In this document: one piece after another, positions 43,424 to 46,170 of the stretch | How positions within the stretch are numbered: position 1 is the first letter of the stretch | How the letters are laid out: the number at the start of each line of letters is the position of its first letter | Origin: Carboxylicivirga marina | GTDB lineage: Bacteria > Bacteroidota > Bacteroidia > Bacteroidales > Marinilabiliaceae | DNA length: 64,000 nucleotides | Assembly: GCF_016612505.1 (NCBI RefSeq) | Contig: NZ_JAENRR010000016.1 | Span: forward strand, 1-64,000 | Direction of reading: 5' to 3' | Notes under the pieces: model-generated | The model's input: the letters and a program-made list of their open reading frames with translations, nothing else | Database searches by the model: none | What the model was told of the DNA's origin: nothing | Program-made: the position numbers and the translations under genes

Positions 43424-43452
43424 AGATATAGCTCTGAAGGAGCGACACGTAA

Positions 43453-43719
43453 TAACCCGAGTTCGACATAAAATTAATAGCTCAGACCGCTTGTAGATAA
43501 TTGTTTTCAAGGAATCTTTGCGAAGGCATAGCGGGCTATGCTAAGCAAATATGACGAAGAAAACAGTTGTTTACAAGTGGAAAACTTGGCTTTTCATTAA
43601 ATAACTGATCTACTTCTCTAAATTTTATCAACATAGCTCGCTATGCTTCCAAAAATTCATATTGTATATCAGTCATTTAATAAAATCTGAGCTGTTTAAT
43701 TTTAATCGAACTCGGGTTA
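43453..43719. repeat. MITE-like element with two internal hairpins (cloverleaf-like)
   Basis: Terminal arms 43453-43486 and 43686-43719 are inverted copies (28 of 34 matches, the outer 14 identical: TAACCCGAGTTCGA). Inside are two hairpins in tandem. The first pairs 43490-43508 with 43559-43577 (16 of 19) and has tip GCATAGC-gg-GCTATGC near 43526-43541. The second pairs 43597-43609 with 43668-43680 (12 of 13) and has tip CATAGC-tc-GCTATG at 43632-43645. No open frame is present. It is best described as a non-autonomous mobile or REP-like element. Confidence 0.7.
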
Positions 43720-43833
43720 ATAGCATAGGTCGCAGGCCTATGTTTTAGATGATGAAGGTCAAGGGCTGTAGGCTTCATACGTGATAACTAAAATATTTGA
43801 CTGTTTACAATGCTAAACGTAGCATTGCTTAAT

Positions 43834-45774: not shown

Positions 45775-46170
45775 TCATGGCCGATATGTAACAGTAGTAG
45801 GGAAGTATGTAAGGCCATTAGAATCGTATGTAAGCCTGTGAGCATTCAATGTAATCCCAACAGCGAAATATGCATGGTCAATAGCCGCGTATGTAAGTGC
45901 ATCAGCGTCGTATGCAAAGGCAACAGTACGATATGTATTGACCTTAGTGCTGTATGTAATCAAAACAGCATTGTATACAGCAACCTCAGCGCGATATGTA
46001 AGACCATTAGCAGCGTATGTAAGCTCAATAGTGTCGTATGTATGACTAACAGAGCGATATGTAAGGCCGTTAGCAGTGTATGTAATCACAACAGCAGCGT
46101 ATGTAAGACCAACAGAATGATATGTAAGCCTGTCAGCACTCACATATTCAAATCTTCCCCAGGGAAGCAT
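45775..46170 (-). CDS. Possible heptapeptide-repeat protein encoded by the tandem array
   Basis: The minus strand of the tandem array is open for 131 codons and reads about 16 imperfect copies of a heptad of the type LTYAANG/ITYSTKV, with Tyr at a fixed position. It begins MLPWGRFEYVSAD. The plus strand is also open over much of it (ICKxxSxVCKxNS heptads), so an open frame alone proves little: a 21-bp repeat free of stops in one frame stays open by construction. I saw no promoter or family match. Low confidence that it is translated. Confidence 0.25.
   Translation of the reverse strand: MLPWGRFEYVSADRLTYHSVGLTYAAVVITYTANGLTYRSVSHTYDTIELTYAANGLTYRAEVAVYNAVLITYSTKVNTYRTVAFAYDADALTYAAIDHAYFAVGITLNAHRLTYDSNGLTYFPTTVTYRP
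45785..46141. repeat. 17-unit 21-bp tandem repeat array
   Basis: Seventeen consecutive units start at 45785, 45806, 45827 and so on to 46121, every one exactly 21 bp with no insertion or deletion. The approximate consensus is TATGTAAGNCCANYAGCRNC plus G. Columns 1-7 (TATGTAA) and 15-16 (AG, 17 of 17) are conserved, while columns 8-11, 13-14 and 17-20 vary. The identity is degenerate, so the array is old or under selection on only part of the unit. It is not a CRISPR: there is no conserved long repeat with unique spacers, and no cas genes. Confidence 0.9.

Follow-up and report, generated by a model that had tools for sequence, protein, structure and literature searches.

A probable IS982-mobilised MITE of Carboxylicivirga marina with two inverted hairpins, probably selected as RNA

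Introduction

Cardinium belongs to the Bacteroidota. The element MITECca01 of Cardinium, which measures about 240 bp, has no transposase and is present in 169 copies that are mostly intergenic, is described in the excerpted text of its report as a MITE derived from IS982/ISCca4 (PMC9769881), and IS982-derived MITEs are thus already known. As for the IS982 family itself, the available excerpt states that the ends mostly begin with AC, that the direct repeats, if present, are 2–10 bp long, and that the elements span 845–1282 bp (PMC7335449). Structured MITE RNAs have been described for Neisseria and enterobacteria, and RNase III cleavage is reported for the Neisseria elements, again in excerpts of the sources (PMC10969869, PMC2229807).

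It is easy to regard the folding of a bacterial MITE as a by-product of its palindromic ends. The polarity of wobble pairs is a test, which requires nothing but sequences, of whether a fold is selected on a single strand. In the element described here, both hairpins give a positive result, and the two directions are opposite.

Borders and layout of the element

The window, that is, the whole stretch of C. marina DNA that was analysed, is 64,000 nucleotides long. The initial annotation had delimited in it a 267-bp unit (43453–43719) with inverted arms and two hairpins. The unit itself stands, but its borders do not: the outer TA is part of a direct repeat of 5 bp, TAATA, which is present on both sides of an element of 263 bp (Table 1). 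This element starts 31 nt past the stop codon of a 623-aa gene of the alpha-amylase/cyclomaltodextrinase type. The outer 34-bp arms do match at 28 of 34 positions, as counted by eye, the two hairpins with CATAGC/GCTATG tips are present where they had been seen, and the unit is indeed devoid of open frames (no ORF of 80 aa or more).

Table 1. Coordinates of the element and of its parts in the window
Feature	Position	Strand	Basis or remark
Left target-site duplication, TAATA	43450..43454	.	repeat of 43718–43722; single TAATA at the G004 empty site
MITE, 263 bp, A-end to B-end	43455..43717	+	12 full-length own-genome copies
A-end terminal inverted repeat, ACCCGAGTTCGACATAAAATT...	43455..43486	+	IS982-type end by comparison
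Hairpin 1, + strand wobble kept	43488..43579	+	RNAalifold, pair counts; GU 304 vs AC 21 cells, 80 copies
Tip of hairpin 1, CATAGCGGGCTATG	43527..43540	+	sequence
Hairpin 2, inverted homologue of hairpin 1, - strand wobble kept	43596..43681	-	RNAalifold, pair counts
Tip of hairpin 2, CATAGCTCGCTATG on +	43632..43645	-	sequence
B-end terminal inverted repeat	43686..43717	-	sequence comparison
Right target-site duplication, TAATA	43718..43722	.	direct repeat; G004 empty site

The element consists of an end, a hairpin, a spacer, an inverted hairpin and an inverted end, and its interior is made of two inverted halves of about 130 bp, each of which contains one hairpin unit of about 95 nt. The comparison of hairpin unit with reverse-complemented hairpin unit gives a score of 34, against a mean of -16.5 and a maximum of 14 in shuffles (n=500), and by this measure each half is an inverted copy of the other. 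Full-length copies of the family span 259–269 bp, and the tip loop of hairpin 1 reads CGGG in 61 of 81 sequences.

Short matches to the sequence that flanks the element (43424–43449 and 43723–43743, around ATATAGCTCTGAAGGAGCGACACG) occur at other places in the own genome (G000), in G004 and, three times, in G007, as if this flank were another dispersed repeat. Degenerate tandem repeats of 21/42/63 bp, open on both strands, occupy 45775–46170.

Copies and target sites

A search of the host genome and of related genomes returned multiple copies with conserved arms and variable flanks, which is what had been expected of a MITE. The host genome contains 12 full-length copies (11, plus one at C143) as well as fragments. 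Matches are found in 11 of the 14 genomes of the genus, including G003, which has fragments only, and in 13 of 60 near relatives, the own genome being counted; copies are also present in other genera. An order-wide search, in which two candidates were scored per genome, gave 17 positive genomes, 12 of which only have matches of about 50 bp or less that we do not count as members. No BLAST match to the MITE was obtained in phage and plasmid collections.

The full-length set consists of 81 sites picked by a script that required 250–272 bp and the A-end motif, which leaves out the 293-bp copies of G039, variants of 187–336 bp and end-only copies. Among these picks, L192 is a chance pick, L074 is half a copy whose apparent right end is due to chance, and L278 has diverged strongly. 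Gene context and loops were counted over all 81 picks, wobble pairs over 80 copies (without L192, with L074 and L278), and target duplications over 78 sites.

Identical 5-mers are present on both sides at 52 of these 78 sites, and TAATA/TATTA accounts for 47 of them; the two 5-mers differ by one base at 16 sites and by two to four at 10. Since the flanking 5-mers are inverted in none of the 81 picks, they represent a target duplication rather than a part of a longer inverted repeat. Past the same gene, G004 has one TAATA at the equivalent position and lacks the element, and this empty site is also without 18 bases of the palindrome that lies to the right. Another own-genome copy, L010, sits in a frame, and the G004 version of this frame is without the element. 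The copies, the conserved ends, the differing flanks, the 5-bp duplications and the empty site together identify the segment as a non-autonomous transposon (MITE), which was one of the two readings first offered, and a transposase family with such ends (see below) agrees with it. The sequence is neither single-copy nor free of compensatory changes in its stems, given the 12 full copies and the covarying pairs, and the observation that had been named as one that would count against either reading was not made.

Short derivatives of 33–50 bp, with little beyond the ends, were noticed at L012 (1510–1559), L110 (4528–4560), L112 (4304–4336) and L115 (4282–4314), and 5-bp duplications surround those of L012, L112 and L115; they look as if the stem had been deleted. 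In variants of 123–295 bp (L129, L131, L036 and L137 (G039)), GCTCCGCTGAGCTCGTCCTTTGTCCTCGGTTGATATA lies beside one end, which suggests that modules have been exchanged within the element.

A MAG labelled Chlorobiota (G423) contains elements of 262 bp (281–542 of L187) with the same two-hairpin plan, a similar tip and a mostly different sequence, whose interior folds with a z of -6.8. They occupy 37 places of at least 45 bp, with 96–100% identity; six are nearly full length and many lie at contig ends, and the copy number is perhaps 20–37. No IS982 above cut-off was detected in the G423 contigs of at least 3 kb, and we regard these elements as a recent burst without a detected IS982. The interior scores 26 (forward) and 38 (reverse) against the window copy, with a shuffle maximum of 38, and 39 against L009, with a shuffle maximum of 40; the comparison with L129 (47, shuffle maximum 43, n=300) is the only one above shuffles, and a common origin of the Chlorobiota element and the MITE family is suggested.

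Ends shared with IS982-family elements

The search for a transposase with matching terminal repeats, which had been proposed as a check, led to the IS982 family: the end of the MITE family, ACCYGAGTTCGA, matches the ends of IS982-family elements. The commoner form of the MITE end is ACCTGAGTTCGA, and that of the window copy, ACCCGAGTTCGA (ACCC), differs from it by one base. The own genome encodes an IS982 element of 1031 bp, with an open frame of 309 aa, a 6-bp duplication (TAATTA) and ends ACGTGAGTTCGA that agree with the family end ACCTGAGTTCGA at 11 of 12 positions and with the window copy ACCCGAGTTCGA at 10 of 12. In G110, from the same order, an IS982 element of 1041 bp has ACCTGAGTTCGA on both sides (12/12 to the family end, 11/12 to the window copy) and a 5-bp TAATA duplication of the same length as that of the MITE. 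The transposases of these two elements are 62% identical.

Such ends are found on both sides at 8 or more of 30 IS982 loci taken from 295 genomes of the order, the own locus included. A 1110-bp element of Thioploca (L205), with the end ACCTGAGTTCGATATAAAATT, encodes an IS982 transposase (NF033520, E 8.2e-68). At least 112 stretches match the pattern TAACCYGAGTTCGAYRTAAAATT, and among the 80 matches listed the organisms range from Bacteroidota to Geminocystis, Thioploca and Acinetobacter; the Thioploca match delimits the 1110-bp element. We infer from these ends that IS982-family enzymes move the MITE.

Within the genus, no IS982 with such ends was detected in 13 of the 14 genomes, and the own genome is the only one in which it was found, as it also is among the 16 genomes searched. 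The complete genome G002 contains 8 full copies with 96–98% identity, yet no PF13612 match. MITE copies can be recent in genomes without a detected IS982. Other candidate partners were set aside. A PF13612 match in G004 (29.9 bits, cut-off 27) is better fitted by DDE_Tnp_1, and no such end pair was seen around it. As to the PF01609 transposases, the end pair was present at one of 30 loci only, L154, which is the own IS982; loci L173 and L177 have one end-like sequence each.

Folding and covariation

The folding and covariation analysis of the copies, also proposed at the outset, gave values beyond chance. The whole unit folds with -99.2 kcal/mol, compared with -47.4 +/- 4.7 for 60 dinucleotide shuffles (z -11.1), and when 25 nt are trimmed from each end the z against dinucleotide shuffles is still -8.1. 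With a consensus of 73 pairs and 32 representative copies, 96.0% of the cells are paired (85.8% in shuffles), 37 of the 73 pairs show double-sided changes (20.5 in shuffles), and the covariation is 0.311 (0.125 in shuffles); each of these three values was reached by none of 500 shuffles. When the partner is slid by one base, pairing falls to 42–46% and covariation to 0.046–0.069, a control that favours the consensus structure because the latter was derived from the same 32 sequences. From these data, we infer that selection keeps the hairpin units in shape.

No Rfam family matches the 64-kb window at the gathering threshold. Four weak hits (three microRNA models and Acido-Lenti-1) have E values of 0.02–0.13 and scores far below their gathering thresholds, and were discarded.

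Strand polarity of the wobble pairs

Folding is strong on both strands, the + strand being more stable in 25 of 32 copies. Since the energy of a strand mixes both hairpins, we relied on pair classes instead of folding energy. The positions used are the pairs found on both strands without G-U, together with symmetric mismatches, so that the choice of pairs favours neither strand.

The copies are related to one another and the cell counts are therefore not independent, but the counts of GU against AC cells are strongly uneven: 118/9 in hairpin 1, 6/68 in hairpin 2 and 3/8 in the outer stem for 32 copies, 304/21, 29/218 and 12/37 for 80 copies, and 307/23, 28/194 and 14/39 for 81 copies. An AC cell on the + strand is a GU pair on the - strand, which means that in each hairpin wobble is tolerated on the strand that is read inward from the nearer end of the element. 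Over the 80 copies, parsimony origins from paired states amount to 47/17 in hairpin 1, 19/68 in hairpin 2 and 11/33 in the outer stem, and columns that retain the wobble to 7/0, 1/11 and 0/0, respectively. The uneven origins of the outer stem imply that origin counts alone are no proof, and that retention is the stronger sign. In the Chlorobiota element, the set available for this test (two distinct elements, each in both orientations, and three of other organisms) is too small.

A strand bias of mutation was considered as the cause of the polarity and rejected, because within the hairpins both strands show similar numbers of transitions (38/45, 50/40, 49/52 and 46/44). The left arm of the outer stem does have uneven transitions (16 vs 28). 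The bases that are unpaired on the inward strand are purines in 70% and 62% of the cases in the two hairpins; a high share of purines at unpaired positions is common in structured RNA.

The polarity suggests selection on RNA, or on single-stranded DNA, that is read inward from either side. We consider RNA as the likely selected form because the wobble pairs that are kept lie almost only on the inward-reading strand. The other initial reading, that of a structured RNA element, therefore receives support from the covariation and from the strand-polar wobble pairs.

Gene context and possible role

The 81 picks comprise 64 sites between ORFs, 12 inside an ORF call and 5 that are unplaced (4 with short flanks, 1 without neighbours). 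The intergenic picks lie between converging genes in 23 cases, between diverging genes in 13, and between tandem genes in 28 (13 and 15 according to orientation), and this lack of preferred orientation fits a symmetric device. The raw distance has a median of 67 nt to 3' ends (n=74, of which 19 are at 9 nt or less) and of 117 nt to 5' ends (n=54).

In the mechanism that we propose, an IS982-family DDE transposase (of the ACSTGAGTTCGA type) would recognise the ends of the MITE in trans and insert it at TAWTA, thereby duplicating these 5 bp. When transcription of a neighbouring gene runs into the MITE, from either side, the first hairpin that is met would fold correctly, and the folded hairpin would probably shield, end or process the message, either as a barrier to nucleases or as a site of RNase III cleavage. 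Insertions beside genes would thereby be tolerable in either orientation. We give this effect on the neighbouring message, with the tolerance that would follow from it, a little less than an even chance. More tentatively, and with clearly less than even credence, the element may consist of two inverted copies of one RNA device, each functional only on its inward strand and serving whichever neighbour reads in, and selection for harmless or useful insertion may have kept it across lineages independently of a resident transposase. If the wobble polarity holds, selection would have acted on this transposon family through what it does to the messages of its neighbours, and dozens of its natural copies lie beside genes. 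Recent MITE copies in genomes without a detected transposase are a puzzle that is left.

Alternative explanations

It may be that the hairpins are passive palindromes of an IS982-driven MITE, the compensatory changes resulting from template switching between the arms at replication (quasi-palindrome correction) with no selection on structure. The terminal repeats, indeed, covary too (column pair 4-276 is UA in 21 and CG in 10 of 32 sequences), and the 33–50-bp derivatives suggest that deletions through the stem occur. However, template switching should remove wobble pairs equally on both strands, whereas hairpin 1 keeps G-U at three columns in 25–29 of 32 sequences and, of the columns that retain wobble, 18 do so in the inward direction and 1 in the other, with no strand bias among the hairpin transitions; we find this explanation rather unlikely. 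The hairpins could also act as DNA, in the form of cruciforms or of single-strand hairpins that aid the transposase or a host protein, an option to which we attach a small probability. Both strands fold strongly, single-stranded DNA would yield the same polarity, and a structured interior (z -3.8 to -5.6) is present in five of six other elements that have IS982-type ends, as it is in the Chlorobiota element, so that folding may serve mobility after all. Against this, a cruciform exposes both strands and should not lead to polarity, and a Kordia element with such ends has an unstructured interior (z -0.5).

That the mover is a transposase outside the IS982 family, or one that was not recognised here, would explain why copies are numerous or nearly identical in genomes in which no IS982 was detected. 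Against it, the ends, and in G110 the target duplication as well, agree with IS982 elements of the same order, and among two-ended elements of 700–2500 bp collected outside the IS982 search, an IS982 transposase is encoded by L154, from the own genome, and by L205, and other frames are present in L134, L206 and L263; together with the single end pair among the 30 PF01609 loci, this makes another mover quite improbable. As for a stationary, immobile structured RNA gene, the strong covariation would be expected of it, but the target duplications, the empty site with a single TAATA and the unrelated flanks make it hardly conceivable. We hold the part of the explanation that concerns the MITE and IS982 with great confidence, and we consider it very probable that the whole, an IS982-moved MITE with two inverted hairpins selected probably as RNA, is correct.

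Comparison with known systems

Neither this MITE family nor polar twin hairpins were met in the open-licence literature on IS982 MITEs and on MITEs, as far as the available excerpts extend. The closest described element is MITECca01, which has a similar size, IS982-type ends and many copies, and no transposase (excerpts of PMC9769881). MITECca01 is described from one Cardinium strain only and shares sequence with its parent IS, unlike the family described here, which spans genera and is mostly without a visible parent; twin hairpins are present in the latter and are not part of the excerpted description of MITECca01. Compared with the IS982 family as excerpted from PMC7335449, the MITE has an AC-type end and a direct repeat in the range of the family, and lacks the transposase. 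The end motif AC(N)6T(N)5TT is partly matched: T9 and T15 fit, and position 16 is an A.

Regarding structured MITEs, NEMIS/Correia, ERIC and CIR are, in the excerpted descriptions, small mobile repeats whose transcripts form long stem-loops, some of which are cut by RNase III, and the CIR RNA consists of two arms with a linker between them. As far as these descriptions go, the MITE of C. marina is set apart from them by its other hosts and by its two inverted copies of one hairpin, with opposite strand polarity.
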